Assembly: GCA_031265955.1 (NCBI GenBank)
Contig: JAISBY010000010.1
Coordinates: 1-64,000 of the forward strand
Reading direction: 5' to 3'
DNA from: Mycoplasmataceae bacterium
GTDB taxonomy: Bacteria > Bacillota_I > Bacilli_A > Mycoplasmatales > Mycoplasmoidaceae
DNA: 64,000 bases
Shown here: one piece after another, positions 6,603-62,044 of the stretch
Layout of the letters: each line of letters starts with the position of its first letter
Position numbering within the stretch: position 1 is the stretch's first letter
Notes under the pieces: model-generated
Told to the model about the DNA's origin: nothing
The model's database searches: none
Seen by the model: the letters and a program-made list of their open reading frames with translations, nothing else
Position numbers and translations under genes: made by a program

Positions 6603-6628
6603 CACACACACACACACACACACACACA
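6603..6628. repeat. (CA)13 dinucleotide microsatellite upstream of BspA-like gene
   Basis: Thirteen uninterrupted CA units, preceded by GTTC and followed by AACTAGTTTTTT. It lies about 100 nt upstream of the BspA-like surface gene start. The flanks resemble the TTCCACACACAAAGTGTTT element found upstream of other surface genes, as if the CACACA part had expanded. Its length is likely unstable and could alter promoter geometry. An imperfect inverted repeat follows at 6657-6679. Confidence 0.8.
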
Positions 6629-6729
6629 ACTAGTTTTTTCACACATTAATTTAATGCAAGTATTAAATATTAATGCTTGTATTTTTTACTTGATCTTGAA
6701 CCAAATTATTAATTTTTAAGGGAAATAAT

Positions 6730-8100
6730 ATGAAAAATAAAAAGAAACACAGTAGCCATTTATCATCCGATGAAAAATTATCGGTAATATATCGTGTGTG
6801 AAAACGGCGTCGTAAGAATATTTCACTTCTTACTAGTTTAGGCATACTTACTACCGGCGGTATTGGCGTTGGAATTGGCTACGCCATTTGACATAAAAAA
6901 AACGGCTCAACTCCTCCCATTCCGTCAACTCCAGTTGTTTTGAATTTTTTATCACCAGAGAGCAATCCGGAAGACTGAGTAACATGTTTTGGAGATTCAA
7001 CCTCTGGTGTAATGACTGGCTTTATAAATGAGACTGGTGATAATTTTTTCGCTCATTCAGCATATAATGGGATAGATTTTTCAGACTTTCATTCCGTCAA
7101 CACTCAAGCTTTCTACGGCTGTGCAAGTTTAAGTAATGATGATGAACATGGCGGGAAGGATACAGTTATTAGTTTCGAAGATTTTGATTCAAACACATCT
7201 ACCTCCATCGGCGAAGGTGCCTTCTGAGGCTGTGCGCGAATTACAAACATTATTCTTCCTAAAGCTACAACTAACGAAAACGTTTTTTCCATCGGTAATA
7301 ATGCCTTCTGAGGCTGCACGAGTTTAACAGAAATTTTATTGCCAGATAACGGTTCAACCGCCGATATTTCCATCGGTGGTTATGCCTTCCGAGGCTGTGC
7401 AAATCTTGAAGATTTTACTTTATCTAATGGTAACACTTCCATCGGTAATTATGCCTTCTGGGGTTGCATAAATTTACAAATGTTATCATTGTCAGAAACT
7501 CCAACGGTGACCTGTAAAATTACTTCCATCGGTACTCGCGCCTTTCAAGGCTGCGCGAGTTTAAGTATTTTAGGAATTCAAAAACTTAGTGGTCATATTG
7601 CTAGCAATCTTAATTATGTGTCCAACGGTTCTGAAGGTGCAGCAATTGTGGCAGCTTCAACCGAAACATGAATTCAAGGTGCGGGTTTGATATCAGGCAA
7701 CCTTGGCGATAAATTTTGTGCAGATTATTTTAAAACAGAAAATTCCATCGGTATTCAAGCATTTGATGGCTGCGCGAGTTTAAAAGCAATTGATTTAACC
7801 ACCGCAAATGCTAATGGTTCCATCGCCAGTAATGCCTTCAATGGTTGTGTGAATTTTTTAACTGTCGAATTGCCAGTGGGCATTGCTACTATTGGCACTA
7901 GCGCTTTCTATGGCTGTGCTGCTTTAAACGCTTTATCTTGGCACAATACGAGTAACCCTACTTTTATAGGGCTTGGTGCCTTTTATGGTTGTGCGAGTTT
8001 AGCCACTATTTACTACGCGCAAGGTGGTTCGGCTTGAAATACTGATGGCAATATTTCTGTAAACGCTCCTAACTGCACTTACACTCAAATTCCTCAATAA
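6730..8100 (+). CDS. BspA-like leucine-rich-repeat surface protein
   Basis: A 456-residue protein with a basic N-terminus, one membrane segment (about 38-58, containing GILTTGGIGVGIGYAIW) and an external domain built from about ten copies of a repeat with consensus SIGxxAFxGCxxLxxI. This is the LRR_5 / Treponema pallidum LRR pattern of BspA proteins, which mediate adhesion in oral bacteria and are hugely expanded in Trichomonas. The repeats retain obvious nucleotide identity (TCCATCGG and GCCTTCTGAGGCTG recur), so copy number can probably change by recombination. The start is placed at 6730 after AAGGGAAATA. The (CA)13 run upstream suggests phase-variable expression. The adhesin role is inferred from the family. 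Confidence 0.88.
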
Positions 8101-24514: not shown

Positions 24515-26048
24515 ATGTTTATTTCAATTAAGCCTAAACCAATATCCAATAACTCCAAAGTTTATTTAATAAAATCTTTTCGTGATGAACAAGGTAAAAC
24601 CAAACAACGCATAATAAAAGATTTTGGTAATTATTATGAATTGTTGAAAGAAGATAAACATTTTTTAGAAAAACTAAAGGCAAATGTGAAGAATTTAGAG
24701 ACAGATTTTAGTCAAAAAAATTTGGATGTTAATAAGGAATATAATTTTGGTTACTTTTTTATTGTAAGAATGATATTATCTATGAAATTGCGAATTTTTA
24801 TTTTAAATAGAACCAGAAATAAAAATGAATATTTGTATAAGTGATTTGTTAACGAAATTATTAGGACTTTTATAAAAAAAGATCTTTTTGAGAATAGATA
24901 TGCAATTGACAGTACCAACGAAATGGTAAATTTAGGGAGGGGGGGGGATAGAAACGATTGTAAATCAACTAAAATTTGACTTGTTGTTATATATATATTT
25001 AAATCATTCTTCTCGTTTAGTGAACAAAGACATTTGCTATGCAAGATTGTTCTCAGTTTATAGCAATCCAAACATTAATGTATTAGTTTGTTTTGATGTA
25101 AATATGATTCCTTTTATCTATAAAATTTTAAACACCACCCATCTATCTAACATTCATTTGTTATTATTTACTTTAAAGCAATTTTATAAAGTGAAAACAT
25201 TTATATGTGGGATGAACCTGTGAAAGATTGTAAACAAAAAGTCCAATGATTATATTTTGCTTGATTATGCGATTAGTAATTTAAACGGTACTGGATATAA
25301 AGCAAATATAGAAAAAATAGTTTTATCTAATTTTCATTCATTAAAAATGAAACCAAAATTTTTACAATTAAATTATCTGGATTCAAATACAAAAAAAGTT
25401 GAAACATCTTATATTATTATTAAGCTTGACATTCAAAAATTACTTTTATTGGTTAAAAAAAATATTGGCGAAGGAAGATTTAAGATTGATTTATTTTTAA
25501 ATACTCCTAATTTGATTCAAAATCAAGGTGTAATTAATTTGCTGTCCAATCATTTAAAAAAATCCAGTGATGAATCAAAATTGATTTTGAAATCTATTAT
25601 GATTGATAGCGTCAGAATTTATTTAACATCAAATTGCATGCCGTCGAATATTGATAAAATTTCATTATTTTTAAACCAAGACTTGAACTGTACTTTTTTT
25701 CAACAAAATTTTATAAATAATTCGACAGATTTTAATTATTTTGTTGACCATAATAAAATTGAATTCAGATATTTTTTAAATTTCATATTCATTATTTTAT
25801 CTATGCAAAGTGCACATTCTTTGGGTTTGTCTTATCAAAGTATGTTTGATATTATTTGTGGATTAACTTTGCATCAGACAAAAGACAATAATTATATTTT
25901 TAGTTTTCCTTCTGTTGAGCGTAATGACATAATCAAAATTAATCAGACTGTTGGTACATTCTTTGAGAGTTCTTTCATTACTAAATATGATATTGTAAAA
26001 GAAAAAATTAGATTAATTATTTCGGCAAAAGATACTAGTTTAAATTAA
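24515..26048 (+). CDS. IS1634-like transposase-derived protein, out of frame at a G9 tract
   Basis: Upstream and downstream parts are in different frames, joined at G9 (24939-24947). With eight G the product would be about 510 residues. The N-terminus (VYLIKSFRDEQGKTKQRIIKDFGNYYEL) and the C-terminal pattern (MFDIICGLTLHQ ... YIFSFPSVERNDIIKINQTVGTFF) resemble IS1634-family transposases, as does a YNFGYFFIV segment. The catalytic aspartates are not evident: the strand usually reading VADxGL reads FICGMNL. No terminal inverted repeats were found. It is more likely a domesticated or decaying relative than an active element. As sequenced the frame ends at a TAG near 25061. Confidence 0.6.
24939..24947. 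repeat. homopolymer G9, frame-breaking
   Basis: Nine G preceded by GGGA. Reading from 24515, nine G lead to a stop near 25061, whereas eight would join the two parts of the transposase-derived frame. Confidence 0.85.
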
Positions 26049-27112: not shown

Positions 27113-27549
27113 CTTTTGCTACAAAATACATTAATTTCATCAAAATCACGAGTGCTTACTAAGAAATAAAATAGGGTATGTATTTTCATTGCATGTTTCT
27201 ACTAGATATGATTAAATAATGACTAAATGAAATTGATTGTTTAAAAATCATCACAATCAGCAGAGATAGTTCCAATTTTAGGTGATCTTTTGATAATAAT
27301 CGTCATTGGTTTAAAACTAAAAATGACAGATTATGAATTTTTGAGATTAATTCATATCGTTAAAAATTTTCAAACAATATATTGAAAAATAAAACAATAT
27401 AGGGTTTTATAAAATTGTTACATCCCTAAGCTTCATACGTAAAGATGATAGGTAATTAATTTAAAAAAAAAAAAAAAAAAATATTTATGAATATGATTAC
27501 AGTTATTTAGAAAAGCAAAGGGAATGGAATTAGATTTAGCAATTTCATA
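27113..27549. other. intergenic region without a clear gene
   Basis: This gap lies between divergent surface genes. A stop-free stretch of 55 codons without a start codon runs on the plus strand from 27245 to 27412 (contains LLIIIVIGLKLKMTDYEFLRL). It may be the remains of a gene but is not convincing. An A19 run lies at 27463-27481. Nothing else is recognised. Confidence 0.4.
27463..27481. repeat. poly-A run (A19) upstream of surface gene A
   Basis: Nineteen A, about 165 nt before the ATG at 27646 and about 70 nt before its dyad element. Long poly-A runs upstream of surface lipoprotein genes are known phase-variation sites in other mycoplasmas. Confidence 0.7.
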
Positions 27550-27645: not shown

Positions 27646-30402
27646 ATGAAAAAATCAAAACTAATCAAAACATTCACGGCAATTGCTTTAGGAGCAACTA
27701 GCATTGGTGTGATTATTCCCATAATCAATCAAATTACTACATCTACTAATGTTAATTCAAAATCAAAATTAAACATTACTGCCAAAGAAACTGTTGACTA
27801 CAAAACCAGCAGTCTTGACATGCTTGCAGCAAAGGTTTATACCTACGCTCGCGACATGCAAGGTTTGTCTGAAGACGAAGCCGAAGCTCAAGTCACGCAT
27901 ACTTGTGGAATCTACAATCACATGTACAACCAACAAGTACAACAAATGACTCAAAATGGGCAAGCGCCTAATGACGATATCCAATATGGCATTATTCAAA
28001 GTCTCAATGATCAATTCAATATCGACCCATTAGATGCTGACGGTATGCAAAGCAACATCCTTCCCAACATTGAAACTAGTCTAGAAAATCAAGGCGAAAC
28101 CCCAGCCCAAGCACAACAAGTGGTTGATAATTACCAATCGGTCGTGGACGAAATGCAAGGTGATTTACCGTCAAATCTTGATATCGCTATGCAATATAAT
28201 ACTGAATTTCAACCAGCGACTGCTAATGAAAATAACCTGGATTTAGTCTGTACTTGAGCGGCAACACAAATCAAAAAATCCTTATCCATTAACAACGACT
28301 TAACTGCCGACTTCGCAAGTAAGCTAGCCGTTTACTCACCCGATGGCAAAGTTGGATATGGCGTTGGTAGCGAAATTACCAAAGAAGATTTAGCTAACTT
28401 ATTCACTTTCAACTACGATCTAACCACTAATGCTTGGTTAGATATTCCTTCTTGCGACTATCAAAATGCCGATACCCAAATCTATGACAAAGTTACCACC
28501 AATTTCACTGAAACCTTACCATTATCATACCTATCTGTGCCAAATGGCGCCACTTGAAATACTGGTGAAATCTTACCAGGATATACCATTCATGTCAAAA
28601 TTACCAACCAAGATTTCACTACTGATTCAAATTATGACAAGATTACTTTTGACTTTGGCGTCAGCAACACCAATGAAGATCCAACTTCTAGCGATGTACA
28701 TTGATTAGACGACTCATCTAATCTCACCGAACAAGTCAATGTATCCACTACCCAAGAAAAACAAAACATTGCTACCAATTACTATTGAAAAAATGACACG
28801 ACTTCCATTGAATGTGCCAACGAATATGACAACACGCTTGATGAATATTTTGTTTGTGACCAAACCAAATCCACTCGCTCTACCATTGAAGAAATTCTTG
28901 CCGGCGCCCCAGTGGATGCTCTCGGCCACTATACTGTCTCCCAAGACAATCCATATTTCATAGACCCCACCCAATTCAATTTCGATGGCATCAATACCCC
29001 GCCAACTGATTTTCTTACCGCGGATAACAACCATACCAACGAAAAACTCATGCTTAAAATCGTCGGCATTAACGACAACACTGAAGGCGCTCGAAACCAA
29101 TCACTTCAATGCAAATGATGCATCGCCGACACCGATCCGCAAACTGGTAATATGATAAGCGTTCACGACATTGATTGAATTGGTCAAGGTTCTCAATACA
29201 TATGAGTTAACTTCAATTATTCAGAAGACGATCTGTTATCAATTGACGGTGCAACTTCGGTTTGCAATTCAATTACCAGCATTGATGAAACTTATCAAGC
29301 TGTTCCTAACCAAGACACAAAAAAAGAATACGATGCTGCCCAAAAATTGTACGTGATTGATATGAATCTTAATATTTCTACAATAGTCGCGGGCGCCGCG
29401 TTATCAGCTTTTGCTGTAGTTCTTTCACTGATGTCTGGAAACAAAACCGATATAATATCTGCTCTTATTGCTGCCGGATTATGTACGGCATTCGTCTCAA
29501 CTACAGCCGTAGAGTTAGCGAATGAAACATCAAATTTAAAAGCACTCAAAAATGCTGATGACACAATGCAAGATACTCATAATGATTTTAGCAAAGATCA
29601 AATTAATCAATTTAGACAATGAGCAAAAACATTAAACGATCCATCTATTTCCATTAGTATTAAACTGACAACCGCTCAACAAGAACAAACATTTGAACAA
29701 AATAATACTGACACTATGAATACATGAGCTAATAATATGTTAAAAGACAATGGTGAAGGTGATGCTGCAAAAGATAGTTTTTCTTTGCAATTTGATGATG
29801 TTACTGATAAAATTGTTTATTGAGGTTCGCATTTATTTTTAATGACGACATGTTTTCTAAGTATTCGTGTCGCTAAAAATGTGTTGACTCTCATAAGAAC
29901 AACACTAGGAAATAATAGACAATTTAGAAGTTTGTTAGATAACTTAAATGACTGTGAATTAAATTTTGCAGATTGTTCTAGATCAGTTAGAGAAATGGAT
30001 TTTAACTTAGCAGAATTTATGGGTGGCGGAATGGCTTATGGATGAGAATCTTTTCCTGAAGCCTTAATGTCTGAATTACGCTCATTTTATGGTGGATCCA
30101 ATACTTTTGATAATTTAGGTAGAGAAATCCCTAATACCGATGGTTATATTAGAGGCAACGTGGGAGAAGGAATGGTTAGACAAGTAAATGATTCGCGAGC
30201 ACAATATAATGAAGCAATTGCTGATATTAATGCACGTGAACGAACATTTGACGTACGTATTATGGATAATGATTCATGAATTGATGGTATTATTGCGAAA
30301 TTAACTCCTATCTCTGAAAAAATGCCCCTTATTATTAATCTTATTGTCGTGCTCAATTTGGCTTTGTCAGCTGCTATCGATCTTGTAGATCTTATTTTGT
30401 AG
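27646..30402 (+). CDS. large surface protein A (family with 30546 and 33260)
   Basis: 918 residues, not recognised outside this family. An N-terminal signal or anchor (LIKTFTAIALGATSIGVIIPII) has no lipobox Cys. A long Asn/Thr/Asp-rich region follows, then a hydrophobic hairpin (about 573-625, STIVAGAALSAFAVVLSLMSG ... LIAAGLCTAFVSTTAVEL), a coiled or helical part, and a C-terminal hydrophobic helix (about 888-912). The first ~560 residues are nearly identical to protein C (33260), while the C-terminal third differs, giving a mosaic pattern. Codons in the shared part are noticeably richer in C than the neighbourhood. A terminator follows. Probably a variable surface antigen (inference). Confidence 0.85.
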
Positions 30403-38457: not shown

Positions 38458-38950
38458 ATTCAAATAATATGGTCTTTAATACGATCTTATCAATAATTTC
38501 TACGAAATAAAGTGTTTTAAGTCAATATTTTGTTATCCTAAATCGCACCCATTATTCTAGTCTGAGTCATACCACGAAGTTTTTTGAATTAAATTCATGT
38601 TTACCATAGTGTGTTGTTCTTTTACTCAAAGTAAATTTGAGTAATGTTAATATTGCAATTACATTTAGTAGCGTAACATTACCTACATCATAACTAATTA
38701 CGTTATTTTTTTTGAAAATTACGACAAAACCGACTTTGGTACATATGGCTTTTTTCTTTTTAAATCACATACAAATACCCCCCCCTATGCAGAAAATTAA
38801 ATCATATAATATGGCATGCAATCAAATAGGGGGGGGATTAGACGCTATAGTGTTGTTAGCACTAATTTAATCTTCTTTCTAAAAACAAAATTATTACATT
38901 CGTAACGATCTTGTTTTTTTGCTATATATATTCATTAAAAGGAGAAAATT
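38458..38950. other. intergenic region with paired C8 and G8 tracts
   Basis: About 490 nt with no convincing gene. It contains C8TA (38778-38787) and TAG8 (38827-38836), which can pair as a 10-bp GC-dominated stem around a 39-nt AT-rich loop that includes a TATAAT-like sequence. Further down, AAAAACAA ... TTGTTTTTTT (38881-38920) forms a terminator-like stem before the next gene, whose AAAGGAG ribosome site is clear. Confidence 0.55.
38778..38836. repeat. inverted homopolymer pair C8 / G8
   Basis: Eight C at 38778-38785 and eight G at 38829-38836 in opposite orientation, each flanked by TA towards the loop. Both arms are expected to be length-unstable and to form a strong cruciform or RNA hairpin. 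Confidence 0.75.
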
Positions 38951-39811
38951 ATGAATAAAACAAAAATATTATTAGCGACGCTAATTTCGGCTACGGCATT
39001 GGTATTTGCCGGAACTGGCGTTGGTATTGGTTATGCCATATTCAATAACAGCAAATCAAACGAAATTACAATTGATGAACTAAAAAATGATTTATTAACA
39101 AAATATACTTGTATCGATACACCTGAAAAACCGATATCGGTCAAAAATACTGATACAACTTCTGGCCAATATACACCTATTTCTGTAGAACCATTAAAAG
39201 ATTTTTGTAGTGGCAACCCTTATAGTTGAACCACAACTATTACTGGAACTAAGTGAATGAATACCGATCAGATGATTTCATATGGATCTTTTTTTGCATA
39301 CTTTAATGATACGGCTCCTTTTAAAACTGGCAAAATTTTAAAACAGCATCAAAATACAACATCCAATATCAATATTGAAAATTACACATATGAATCCAAT
39401 TATAAAATAGATAATTATTTCGTGGATTTTTACAATGTTATGTATTACACGCATATTAGTCTTTCGTTTGTAGAAACAAATTCTAGCATAACTAATAATA
39501 CAGATGGTTCAAAAATACTCTTTAATGATATTAGTAATGCAGGTAATATATTTGTGCCAAGCTTATGTGCAAACTCATTTTCGGGTTCATCCTTTGATGA
39601 TCTTTGAGAAGTTTCATATGTTTTGGGTGTAATATACAATGGAGATTTTTATTTATTTTTACTGCATAGTGCAACCACTTTTCTCGCATCAACTGTTATT
39701 AGTTTAATTAATAACGGCCAATTTGTATTTTCTTGCCCGACAAATTACTCATCAAATTACTTTATGAGTAAAGTAATTGATATGGACGTTAATACCGTTT
39801 CCGATCAGTAA
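38951..39811 (+). CDS. surface protein E, unknown
   Basis: 286 residues, MNKTKILLATLISATALVFAGTGVGIGYAIF as N-terminal anchor, very like the anchor of the BspA-like protein (TGGIGVGIGYAIW), followed by an Asn/Ser/Thr/Tyr-rich ectodomain with no recognised domain and a hydrophobic patch (FYLFLLHSATTFLASTVISL). A strong AAAGGAG ribosome site lies 8 nt before the ATG. Upstream is the C8/G8 inverted pair, which could regulate it. Function is unknown; a surface location is inferred. Confidence 0.75.
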
Positions 39812-41283: not shown

Positions 41284-41312
41284 ATTATAAAAAAAAAAAA
41301 AAAAGTTATACT
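41284..41312. promoter_or_regulatory. divergent promoters sharing an A16 tract
   Basis: TATAAT on the minus strand (41284-41289) serves the ABC permease and TATACT on the plus strand (41307-41312) serves the lipoprotein. The sixteen A at 41289-41304 occupy the spacer region upstream of both -10 boxes. This resembles the poly-A spacer switches of mycoplasma vlp-type genes. Confidence 0.65.
41289..41304. repeat. poly-A run (A16)
   Basis: Sixteen A between divergent -10 boxes; expected to be length-variable. Confidence 0.85.
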
Positions 41313-41347: not shown

Positions 41348-42817
41348 ATGAATTTGAATAAATCAAAGATTTTGACTCCTATTATTATGTCTTTTATTTT
41401 CCTGACCGGGGGGGGTGCTGCATCATTATTATCTTCATGTTCTATCACACAACCATTGCTTCAAGTGGGAGGGGACAATGAAATACAATGATTGCCTAAT
41501 ACGAAAACAGTTGCTACCGCTACATGGTTAGGGTATTCTGGGAATACCATTAAATATTGATACGATTCTCACGGCAATGATGAATATTTTACATTAGATG
41601 ATTCAAATAGAACCGTAAATTCATGACATTTAATTTTTGACATGAAGAATCCGCAAGAAATTACTAATAGTTTCGTTATCTCAGTTTATTTTCAGGTAGA
41701 AAATACCAAGTATATTCAACATCATGATATTAAAATTGACCAATATACTCCACAACCAGAACCAGTAATAATTGGTGATTGAGGGATAAACAAAGGATCT
41801 GATCCAGCGAGTTTTTGCCCCGTTCCTAAAACTGATTTGTCTACAAATAATTCTATTTCGATTTGTTTGGATTATCTTTATGAGATTGGTGACTCTTCTG
41901 ATAAAATTTCTGCAATTTCTAACCAATTGAAAGCAGATTTCACTTACTTTATGAATGAAAGTGTTGACAATATTGCTCATGCAATTATTCTCTACAAATC
42001 GGTGAATTCATACAATTTAAATATTAAATTCGCTTATAACGCTCAGGAAAGATTATTTTCTAGCGCCGAAATTGATGGCACTATAAAATATAATTTAATC
42101 GTAGGCAGTACTGAAGTTGCTTTCCACATTGACCTACACAATTATTTATTTATTGGTGCCTTTAGTGCAAATCATGCTAATTTATCTTACAACGATCCTT
42201 ACAATAACAATAATGGTCACAAAGATTACAGCGGGAATATAACGACAGGAAATTGTTTGGGTTTGAGCCCACTTGATAATGATAGTTTTTATCATTTCAA
42301 AATTAACGGTGGTTCAGGTCTAATCAATATGGAACATACTTATTGCATTAATGCCGTAAAGTTTATTGGCATTGAAGACATCGGTAATGCCGGAAATGAG
42401 GCTGGCATATATGTGAAGAGTTGATATTTAAAAGATATTCAAACAATTTATCCAATTGACCTTTCGCCTATTTTAACACAAACATTAACAATCAATAACT
42501 ATTGGATTCCAGGTGATGTAGATGCATTTTGTGATGAAGATAATGGCAAGGGATGAAACAATAAAAATGTTGATTCTGTAGATAAATTCCAATTATTTGA
42601 TAAGTGTGTAGGAAGCGAATGAAGAAACATTGTTATTCAATATGCTGATGGCAAATCAATTACTCTAGATTATCGACAAATTTTTGACAAAATTTGAGCT
42701 TGAAAGGATGGTAATAGTGTTTCAATAAATGTTTTTCCATCCTATTATTTTTATATTAACGATTCATGATTTTACAGCTACACTTCACAAAATATAATCT
42801 TCAATAATAGCCCTTAA
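41348..42817 (+). CDS. phase-variable lipoprotein (ON) with G8 in its signal peptide
   Basis: 489 residues. The signal peptide has a basic start, a hydrophobic core and the lipobox SLLSSC with the lipidated Cys at residue 31, the clearest lipobox in the window. A G8 run (41408-41415) encodes Gly21-Gly23 inside the signal peptide and the frame is intact, so the gene is ON; one base more or less would stop synthesis before the mature protein. The mature part is Asn/Asp/Trp-rich with no recognised domain. The promoter contains an A16 tract, so transcription and translation may both switch. A surface antigen role is inferred. Confidence 0.82.
41408..41415. repeat. homopolymer G8 in lipoprotein signal peptide (in frame)
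   Basis: Eight G at codons 21-23 of the lipoprotein gene. The current length keeps the frame open (ON). Confidence 0.88.
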
Positions 42818-42830
42818 TGGGTTATCTGAA

Positions 42831-43794
42831 CTATGCTCACAAACCGTTAATATCAAATTTTCACAAACTTTGAAAAGGATCACCAGTTAATAAACAAATA
42901 GCACCAAAGTAAATCATTCCACCCGCTAAAATTGATGAACATAAAATAAACAATATTATGAAAGTAATTCTTGTTGCGGGACGATCTTGATAGATTTTTT
43001 TACCTTTCGCCATTTTGTAAATAGTTTGATTGGGTAATATGGCATGCATTTTTAGAATTCATCATTCATTCATAGACTCAAAGAAATTATTTCATTTTCA
43101 AAATCGTACTACTGCATAACACAATAAAACAATAACCATTGCGGTAAAAATATCCACAATATAGTGCTGTCTTACAAATAAGACGGAAAGAGATACTAAG
43201 ACAAACATTATTCCTGTTACTAAAATCATCCAACAATTATTCTTTTTGTTTTTCTCAGTTTTGTTCCAACAAGCAACAAAGGGTAAAAAAGTACATAACA
43301 CATGAAAAGATGGCGCAAGATTATCGGGAAGGTCGTTTTCATAAACCATTGTATTCATAATATTTCATAATGGTTTGTCTTTATAAGTTTGAATATTAGA
43401 ATAATCAATATAGCTCATTTTGGATGGTAGAATTACCAACCAACAAAAACCGATAATTTGAGTGAATAAAGTGGCGGCAACAAATTGATAAAAAACTTTT
43501 TTGCCCATTATGCCATATATGACGAACGGAATGGCAATTCAATAGAAATACGACAAAATATAGGGAATTACAAAGAAAGATACAAAAGGTATTTGATGAT
43601 CAATTGGTAGACTCCAATCAAAAAAACTATGGCCATTAGCAAAAACTGTATGTGTAATTAATCTAGCCAATAGGTATCAAAAACGGTTGAATGCCAATAG
43701 TAATCCTGGCATTAAAATAACAATGATATGATTTTTTAATCATAATCAAAATTTTTTATGTTTGACGGGGGGGGGATAAAAAGGTTTTACTCAT
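42831..43794 (-). CDS. PAP2-superfamily membrane phosphatase, out of frame at a C9 tract
   Basis: An ATG at 43794 starts a frame that meets nine C on the coding strand (43775-43767) at codon 7 and then stops within a few codons. With eight C it would read on as a 320-residue polytopic membrane protein. The body shows PAP2 motifs: LAPSFHVLCTF (PSxxH) and FVRQHYIVDIF (RxxxHxxxD). It would act on lipid phosphates or pyrophosphates, or transfer head groups. The ATG overlaps the end of the MBL hydrolase gene by 8 nt. It is currently OFF; an internal start after the tract is possible but unattractive. Confidence 0.72.
43767..43775. repeat. homopolymer G9 (C9 on coding strand), frame-breaking in PAP2 gene
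   Basis: Nine bases where eight would fuse the start codon to the PAP2 reading frame. It lies at codons 7-9. Confidence 0.85.
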
Positions 43795-59653: not shown

Positions 59654-61844
59654 TTATGGTACTACCGTTACATAAATATCAAAATATACGTAAAAATAAC
59701 CTGAGTATCAATAACGAAGTTTTCCATGAAATTCACCAGCCATTCTTACTGCAGTTAATTCTAATGTCACCACTCCTTGGTTTGATTGCAGAGTAGCAGT
59801 TACTGCTGTAGAATCAGGAAGTCATGCTCAGGTACCGGTAGTAAAAGTTTGATCTCCTATAGTGTTATATTTTACTGAACATGTTGAACCAATCGTCATG
59901 CCAAAATGTATACCATCGGTTGTTGCTGTTTCAGGTATAGCAGAATTATTAACATAACTAATACTGTATGGAGCACTAAGACTTTCTTGCATTACGATTG
60001 TCGTTTGGACAGTAGTTGTTTCATATTCACTGTACGAAAATGTGATTGACAAATTAAAATTTTTAGTTTTATTAATGGTTCCAGGAACTAAAATTTGCAT
60101 AGTATTTTGGTTTTGATTATAAATCGTAATATCACCATTATCATCATGGGTGTCGCCAGACAATTTTCATATTCCATATCTGTCAGTAGCAGGATTTGTA
60201 TTGTTGAATGTAAGCACATTCCCGTCTAGTCCCCCATACATACTTGTGCTTGGAGGGCCACTAATTATTGGTGTAGTAAGTGGAATAATATTTAATGTAA
60301 CAATCATTGTAGCAACCATTCCAATTGTACTAACGGTATATGTAATAGTAATTGTATGAATGCCAATTGTTGCAACATTAGTTCAATTTAACGTTCCGTT
60401 AGTGAATGTTACACCATTGCCAGTTCCAGTAGCACTCCATACTCCACCACTTGTAGCATTAGTATAGACGTGGCTACCATCTATTGTTTGGTGCCCATCT
60501 ATGTAATTTCGTCCGATAATTGGAGTAGTATCAAATGGCGCAACATCAAGCAAACATGTTGTTGAAATATTTGATTGTCTATTATCTGAAATAGTTATAG
60601 TTTTGTTACCTGCTGTTAAATTTGAAGAGGTTGCACCTAAAGTGAGCAAAAAATAATCTCCACTCACAGTCATTTGTGTAGTCAAACCAGTGGCCCCTGT
60701 AATTGTAAAATTATTAATAGTAGTAGTGGTTAAATAATTAATTGTCTGAACTTTAACCGTAGCATCAGAAGTAGTATTTCCAACTTGAAGACTGTTAGTT
60801 TGAACAATAGCTTGTAATTTTCTTGCTGGAGCAATAGACAAATCAAATTCTAATTCAGTATTATCAGAGCCAATAATTGTAATGTGGATCGGATCGTTTG
60901 ATACTAGCGAAGTGGTTTCCGTTAATGTTAAAATTACATTCTGGTCAGTCGCATCGCTAAATTGACCTGAAATTAGTGCTGTACTTACTGAAAAACTCAT
61001 TTCAGAAATTGGCGCATCATTTACTGCTGTAATTTTAATTACAGCAGTAGAATCAACATTATCAACTTGAAGATTGTTAGATTGTATTTCGAAATTATAA
61101 AATTTAGTGGCATCAACTTTTTGAATTACGAATGTTGTGATGGAAGTGAAATTTTCATAATTTAATTCAGCAGTTATTGTGTCAGGCAAAGCATTGTTTG
61201 TTAAAGTTAAAGTAAACATTGCTTGGTCATTAGTTGGAGGTGCTAACACTATGCTAACATATGCGCTAGCATCAGTGCCCGTTCCATTTTTCAATGTCAA
61301 ATTACTTGTACTAATATTCAATAAGTTAGCCCCGTTATAACCGTTAGCAGTTAGGGTGATTTGATTATCAACGCCTGTTCCTTTACCTATTTGCATTTTA
61401 CCAGTAGTCTCTAAATTAAATGCACTTCTTTCTTTTACCAAGAAATCGGTATATTTAGTATCTATACCAACAGTTATGGCAATTTGGTAAGTGCCAGCCA
61501 TAATTTCTTTATAAGTTTCTGGGATTGTTACAGTTAATGTACTAATTAATCCATTAGTTACTATTTGATCAATCTGAAATAACTGGTTACATTCAATTTC
61601 ATCTTTAAAAAAATTAATTTTAGGTTCAACTCAATTTGAAGTTAAAGATTCAGTAATTCTAATTTGCATTGAACTGTTAGGATCGTATTCCCTTAAGTTA
61701 TCATTGCTGATTTCTATATTAAAACTAATGTGATGAGTAACTGAATTATTGGCAAGGATATTAGTGCCAACTACTACGCCTGTCGCCCCCCCCCGTTGTT
61801 GCTATTGCTGCTACTGCAATAGCCAATTTGGTTTTTAAAGCCAT
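59654..61844 (-). CDS. large phase-variable surface protein F with beta-repeat domains, currently out of frame
   Basis: The ATG at 61844 opens MALKTKLAIAVAAIATTGG, a signal peptide interrupted by nine G on the coding strand (61794-61786). As sequenced it stops after about 28 codons; with eight G the frame runs on for about 729 residues. The body is Thr/Asn/Ser/Ile-rich with repeated beta-sandwich-like units of about 90 residues (LQVDNVDSTAVIKITAVNDA and LQVGNTTSDATVKVQTINY are related), like bacterial Ig-like surface repeats. GGGAG precedes the ATG. The promoter has a T17 spacer, so both transcription and translation may switch. OFF as sequenced. Confidence 0.78.
61786..61794. repeat. homopolymer C9 (G9 on coding strand), frame-breaking in surface protein F
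   Basis: Nine bases at codons 17-20 of the surface protein. Eight would restore the full frame. Confidence 0.87.
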
Positions 61845-61887
61845 TTTTATTTCTCCCATAGACAAATTAATAACAAATTATATTAAC

Positions 61888-61915
61888 AATATAAAAAAAA
61901 AAAAAAAAACAAGAA
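61888..61915 (-). promoter_or_regulatory. promoter of surface protein F with poly-T spacer
   Basis: On the minus strand TTCTTG (61915-61910) and TATATT (61893-61888) flank a run of 17 T (A17 on the plus strand, 61893-61909). The spacer is 16 nt, so each added or lost T changes promoter geometry directly. Confidence 0.62.
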
Positions 61916-61970: not shown

Positions 61971-62044
61971 TGGAGCAGGTAATCGGAATCGAACCGACGA
62001 CCACAGCTTGGGAAGCTGTTGTTTTACCACTAAACCATACCTGC
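61971..62044 (-). tRNA. tRNA-Gly (anticodon CCC)
   Basis: A full cloverleaf on the minus strand: acceptor GCAGGTA / TACCTGC, D-arm GTTT-AGTGGTA-AAAC, anticodon stem ACAGC / GCTGT with loop TTCCCAA giving anticodon CCC, variable GGTC, T-arm GTCGG-TTCGATT-CCGAT, discriminator U and an encoded CCA. The U73 discriminator agrees with glycine identity. A CCC anticodon reads GGG, a rare codon in so AT-rich a genome. Confidence 0.9.

Follow-up and report, generated by a model that had tools for sequence, protein, structure and literature searches.

A putative phase-variable surface-protein gene with two homopolymeric tracts, and recurrent tract-bearing leader elements, in a mycoplasma draft genome

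The window analysed (the whole stretch of 64,000 nucleotides) is part of contig C3 of the draft genome of an uncultured Mycoplasmataceae bacterium, which comprises 0.98 Mb in 11 contigs, is about 89% complete and reads TGA as Trp. Its PolC matches those of the 'Mycoplasmataceae bacterium' MAG isolates Cc175 and Pcl387 at 71-75%. Isolate codes of this kind presumably come from termite guts. The window encodes a gene designated F, with a G9 tract inside its signal peptide and a T17 tract in its promoter region, a tRNA-Gly gene upstream of F, a lipoprotein gene that also carries two tracts, a secreted-protein frame behind an A19 tract, and a leader element placed ahead of a surface-protein gene (Table 1).

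Table 1. Features of the window: gene F and its upstream region, the other promoter tracts and the leader element
Feature	Position	Strand	Basis
F: T17 tract in the promoter region, putative transcriptional switch	61893..61909	-	one of seven A/T runs of at least 13 nt genome-wide
F: TTCTTG, candidate -35, weak (2/6 to TTGACA)	61910..61915	-	sequence
F: TATAAT, best -10 candidate	61877..61882	-	sequence; tract-to--10 spacing compared with other loci
F: TATATT, alternative -10	61893-61888	-	sequence
F: GGGAG, Shine-Dalgarno-like	61853..61857	-	sequence
F: start codon and signal-peptide N-terminus MALKTKLAIAVAAIATT	61795..61844	-	ATG 61844-61842
F: G9 tract inside the signal peptide, frame-disrupting (OFF)	61786..61794	-	ORF reading
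F: rest of the coding frame (some 709 codons); beta-rich and perhaps Ig-like in a low-confidence model	59654..61785	-	
tRNA-Gly(CCC), about 127 nt upstream of the F ATG, same strand	61971..62044	-	
A16 promoter tract of the second two-tract gene, followed by GT-TATACT	41289..41304	+	
Lipoprotein gene MNLNKSKILTPIIMSFIFLTGGGAASLLSSC, in frame (ON)	41348..42817	+	
G8 in the signal peptide of this lipoprotein gene, in frame	41408..41415	+	
A19 promoter-region tract before a secreted-protein frame	27463..27481	+	
Leader element: ATG 5 nt past TATAAT, ORF with G8, two hairpins, terminator	38816..38929	+	
G8 in the leader ORF, frame reaching the terminator	38829..38836	+	
C8 (+ strand letters), 19 nt upstream of the leader -10; second tract of the locus	38778..38785	-	
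286-aa surface-protein gene behind the leader (MNKTKILLATLISATALVFAGTGVGIGYAIFNNS)	38951..39811	+	

The G9 tract of F lies about 50 nt downstream of the ATG. The initial annotation had stated that nine G place the start codon one base out of frame with a surface protein of about 729 codons, and both the count and the offset proved correct when the frames were read. Indeed, (i) the ATG frame closes seven codons past the tract (MALKTKLAIAVAAIATTGGGDRRSSWH*), and (ii) the long frame past the tract (TGVVVGTNILANNS...) comprises 709 open codons down to position 59654, with TGA read as Trp. The tract lengths given for F are those of the draft-assembly consensus. Two intact paralogues of F (1103 and 1108 aa, 66% mutual identity) are encoded on contigs C5 and C6; they open with MALKAKLIIASATVATTGAATGAVVG (MALKAKL...TTGAATGAVVG), their start (MALKAKLIIASATVATT) is the same as that of F, and they are uninterrupted across the site of the F tract, where the DNA alignment places eight mixed, non-homopolymeric bases in both of them versus G9 in F. 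Because the paralogues, one base shorter here, stay in frame across the site, F is a full gene with a frameshift, and its out-of-frame G9 fits a tract of the frameshift-contingency type. Both paralogues lack the T run as well as the G tract, so that the two tracts could either have been gained by F or have been lost by the paralogues.

The label 'surface protein' is drawn from the signal peptide and the predicted fold of F only. A Pfam search with F and four relatives returned no match over the cut-off for F. The AlphaFold model is poor (mean pLDDT 54.8, pTM 0.27, residues 501-710 uninformative), and Foldseek searches with it retrieved mostly proteins made of tandem Ig-type beta-sandwiches, with TM-scores of at most 0.3. 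Because of the poor model and the low TM-scores, the fold is described as beta-rich and possibly Ig-like, and F may possibly be a chain of Ig-like domains. An F orthologue at the same location is absent from three related MAG contigs around polC, and weak matches to F were found in just one other genome of 36 (best match 34%).

The T17 tract was found exactly where the initial annotation had placed it, and was described there as the spacer between TTCTTG and TATATT. T17 lies upstream of two -10 candidates, as a perfect TATAAT, which starts 10 nt past T17, competes with TATATT; TTCTTG is a poor -35. A strict sigma-70 scan of the F upstream region found no promoter. A GAA array of the vlhA type is absent from the sequence read upstream of F, where only T17 is present. 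Because the -10 is ambiguous and TTCTTG is weak, the reading of T17 as the promoter spacer of F is likely, yet not settled. We infer that the length of T17 affects transcription of F and could provide graded control. Transcription from the tRNA gene upstream could also feed into F. The CCC anticodon of this tRNA-Gly reads GGG codons.

Runs of this kind are far more frequent than expected. Indeed, the window contains nine G/C runs of at least 7 nt versus 0.46 expected (100 first-order Markov sequences, maximum 2) and three A/T runs of at least 13 nt versus 0.22 expected (Markov maximum 2). Genome-wide counts were obtained by pattern searches and from fetched stretches around tracts (402 kb), in which 34, 3, 7, 31, 27 and 5 G/C runs of 5, 6, 7, 8, 9 and 10 nt, respectively, were counted, along with five A/T runs of 9 nt, none of 10-15 nt and seven of 16-19 nt; these counts overstate density, given that tracts guided the choice of stretches. 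Short and long runs are separated by the same gap in the window alone, and this gap is no product of tract-based sampling. The whole genome has about 65 G/C tracts of 8-10 nt, set apart from the shorter runs by a sharp gap at 6 nt; A/T runs of at least 13 nt number only seven, and all of them measure 16-19 nt. The Markov excess and the bimodal lengths indicate that tracts of the F kind are longer than chance and specific. Counts of G8 matches in the congeneric genomes (G001-G024) range from 0 to more than 100, and the poly-G repertoire therefore seems to grow and shrink fast. No MutS_I or MutL domain was found in the genome, in a search that detected 11 of 14 controls; this absence is not final, because about 89% of the genome is present. 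The lack of MutS and MutL is expected in a mollicute.

All G/C runs of at least 7 nt in the fetched stretches were read in both directions. About 20 tracts are located within the first 130 nt of genes for lipoproteins or secreted proteins, near the lipobox or within the hydrophobic stretch, about 12 of them in frame (for example C2:35896, C3:95245, C5:83998, C5:88963, C7:32526, C7:66660 and window 41408) and about 8 out of frame (for example F, C2:821, C3:98492, C3:120048 and C5:17790). Four related tandem genes (L030, G000:C3:455588-459936) carry C8, C9, C10 and C8 at one and the same coding site, and one of the four is in frame; as read from the assembly, this array is a case of length variation between sister copies, yet not within a population. 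F has many counterparts of this kind and is not singular. Two out-of-frame candidates at non-lipoprotein genes are also present in the window, namely a C9 (43767-43775) at the start of the frame of a PAP2-family phosphatase (42831-43712, minus strand) and a G9 (24939-24947) between the two halves of a frame (24515-26048).

As regards promoter tracts, six of the seven long A/T runs lie 0-10 nt ahead of a TATA-like hexamer and 31-164 nt ahead of a membrane-protein or secreted-protein gene. The secreted-protein frame behind A19 comprises 963 codons from stop to stop (MKKSKLIKTFTAIALGATSIGVII..., ATG at 27646). Three of the seven runs have a G tract no more than 150 bp away (those of F, window 41289/41408 and C3:300113/300157), versus 0.13 expected (P = 4e-4). 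A search pattern made of an A/T run, an ATG and a G run at F-like spacings, with the reversed pattern as a control, recovered the two-tract layout in two genes of the window and in three other species (two loci in G009, one in G022 and one in G047), whereas the reversed pattern gave zero matches in 36 genomes. These loci open like signal peptides, and most of them reach a lipobox in one of their frames. The recurrence of the layout in the second window gene and in three species supports the proposal of the initial annotation that F is controlled at two levels, promoter and coding. A (CA)12 repeat (6603-6626), about 47 bp upstream of a gene (6673-8100), is a possible further contingency repeat of the promoter type.

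Other explanations of the G9 tract were considered. F could be a decaying pseudogene, a dead gene with a fixed lesion, given that it is now out of frame and that two intact paralogues could cover its function. However, the sole lesion in about 729 codons is a homopolymer, the other 709 codons are open, and a tract in the signal peptide is also found in many in-frame genes, so that decay is highly improbable. It is very unlikely, too, that G9 arose from an error in assembly or base calling while every cell is in frame: homopolymers are the usual site of such errors, but the run lengths are bimodal, many similar tracts are in frame and long housekeeping frames nearby, e.g. polC, are intact; even then, the case for a tract and its slippage would remain. 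Long homopolymers are also generally known to provoke transcriptional slippage or ribosomal frameshifting, by which G9 could be read through in all cells, with a steady low output and no phase variation. Little probability is given to this explanation, as tract lengths differ among the sister copies of the array and among loci, and equivalent sites are found both in frame and out of frame; these differences suggest that DNA length is what changes.

For T17, the alternative is that it forms the U-run of a terminator following the tRNA or is neutral sequence, with no promoter function. The run does follow a tRNA gene of the same strand, and the match to a -35 is poor. Against this, no terminator hairpin was found ahead of T17 on the F strand, on which ground T17 was rejected as a terminator, and no clear terminator was seen between the tRNA and F. 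Furthermore, runs of this kind occur at other genes as A on the coding strand and stand mostly just ahead of a TATA-like box. At the G009 loci, 4-5 nt separate the run from TATAAT and a further 6-11 nt separate TATAAT from the start codon, which places the run upstream of the -10. A terminator or a neutral run is thus considered unlikely, and T17 is taken below as a probable promoter element.

Furthermore, about ten G tracts of the genome, including the one in the window, sit in a conserved leader element, which is composed of a TATAAT, 5-7 nt, the sequence ATG CAA TCA AAT AGG GGG..., two hairpins, a T run and the start of a surface gene. The leader ORF, whose start is at about +1, contains the G tract and has an overlap with an intrinsic terminator. 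In the first hairpin, a pyrimidine run is the pairing partner of the G tract, and the second hairpin is long, with the T run at its end. The window element scores 109.8 bits with the covariance model R1, being itself a member of the model's input, and has a fold z of -3.2. The leader helices covary, with 11 pairs changed on both sides versus 4.2 in shuffles, a number equalled by none of 500 shuffles. Matches to the model, some of which are reverse-strand echoes, number 16 in the source genome, 21 in G042, 34 in G024 and 9 in G021, with a few in G045, G006 and G019; the leader loci are the window element, L015, L024, L026, L027, L029, L036, L040 and L081-L140. In G021, G006 and G045, a (GA)n repeat takes the place of the G tract at the same site. 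Outside the genus, no leader was found in a 198-genome sample of the order, under stricter filters by which weak matches are lost, and no fitting family is present in Rfam. F has no such leader, as R1 yields in the window only the element described and a weak echo on the reverse strand.

The frames of the leader ORF were analysed in 58 copies from 6 species in which start, tract and terminator were identified. Exactly one of the three post-tract frames reaches the terminator hairpin in 56 of the 58 copies (shuffle mean 27.7), which do not amount to 58 independent tests because the copies are related. At present, 15 copies are open up to the terminator, 39 close early and 4 close immediately ahead of it; the window element is among the long-frame copies, and L040:9374-9487 is a short-frame one. 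A downstream gene start was found for 54 copies, at a median distance of 33 nt from the terminator. Codon positions reveal no clear constraint on the leader peptide, as a third-position excess was seen in just one of three genomes, and its changes are mostly non-synonymous; the peptide as such therefore seems unconserved, in contrast to the open frame and the RNA pairing. This lack of constraint is expected if it is the act of translation that matters. A homopolymer (C7-C12 or T18) is present upstream of the leader -10 in 15 of 63 copies, whereas none of 581 control windows in G042 has one. In G042 leaders, for example L083, L086, L091, L098 and L099, a poly-C of 8-12 nt stands just upstream of the -10 and gives the locus a second tract, at its promoter. 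The leader elements thus show the succession known from pil1, i.e. a repeat in a leader ORF, then a terminator, then a surface gene, and on this analysis they seem to act via premature transcription stop.

Building on the tract positions, the frames, the paralogue comparison, the recurrence of the layout and the RNA pairing, a mechanism can be proposed in which the slippage rates, the effect on transcription and the attenuation are presumed. Switching at these tracts is something that we infer from their sequence. In brief, replication slippage, unrepaired without MutS and MutL, would alter tract length by at least one base. In the signal peptide of F, slippage of the G tract would flip translation between OFF and ON; at T17, it would change the distance between the -10 and upstream contacts, and transcription would be altered or abolished. 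At the leader elements, tract length would decide whether the ribosome enters the terminator hairpin, thereby letting RNA polymerase pass. Surface genes carry one or two such tracts, which consist of A/T or C at the promoter, of G or GA in a leader ORF that overlaps a terminator and of G or C in the signal peptide; F would have the promoter and the signal-peptide switches and be OFF at the latter in the present assembly. The outcome would be a random and combinatorial expression of the cell surface. F is thus regarded as a real two-tract contingency gene, currently out of frame and probably functional; very probably, its surface protein is phase-variable through slipped-strand events at both tracts, as part of a genome-wide repertoire.

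Several known systems resemble these loci. The vlp promoters of Mycoplasma hyorhinis, reportedly described by Citti and Wise in 1995, contain a poly-A between -35 and -10. In these surface lipoprotein genes of a mollicute, an A/T run of some 17 nt directly precedes the -10, to which T17 ahead of the candidate -10 of F is comparable, whereas F has a second tract in its coding region; the F protein is presumably unrelated to the vlp products. Mycoplasma hominis vaa and M. fermentans p78 have poly-A tracts of 7-8 nt in the 5' coding region (PMC2831843). As proposed for F, a 5' homopolymer acts there as a frameshift switch of a mycoplasma surface protein, but those tracts are short and of poly-A, and the ones found here are poly-G/C of 7-10 nt in an AT-rich genome. 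In Neisseria, fetA and porA have promoter-spacing tracts and pilC a poly-G frameshift tract (PMC5320596). These two mechanisms, transcriptional spacing and translational frameshift, are the ones proposed for F, although phylum and genes differ, and here both kinds of tract are found on one gene and recur within a genus. The meningococcal porA also has a coding tract, and tract stacking is therefore not unique.

For the leader elements, the closest likeness is with pil1/pil3 of Streptococcus gallolyticus, in which a repeat in the leader ORF switches attenuation and in which mutants showed that translation of the leader counters a premature terminator (PMC3894217). In both systems, and here as a proposal, a leader-ORF repeat sets the arrival of the ribosome at a premature terminator before surface genes. 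In the elements described here, by contrast, the repeat is G or GA and not GCAGA, the ORF starts at about +1, the first hairpin covaries and includes the G tract in its pairing, and each genome has tens of copies. A 2025 review of phase variation (PMC11868660) uses none of the terms attenuation, leader peptide and terminator, and no case of slippage-controlled attenuation beyond pil1/pil3, two pilus loci of a single streptococcal group, was found in the open-licence literature searched. No new principle is involved here; the unusual points are that tracts are stacked on single genes, that this recurs in the genus and that the leader family is multi-copy, with an exchanged repeat.

In summary, F would be a natural case of two unlike random switches in series, whose output could equal the product of two rates and could be predictable from sequence. 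The wider system is more interesting than F alone. It appears probable that the genus stacks serial slipped-strand switches and that those of the leader kind, with tens of loci per genome, with poly-G and GA exchanged and with position and logic kept, are genus-wide phase-variable attenuators. The exchange of G for GA suggests that selection maintains the switch and not the repeat, and the leader family suggests that the slippage-controlled attenuation of pil1/pil3 arose independently or spread widely in these mollicutes.
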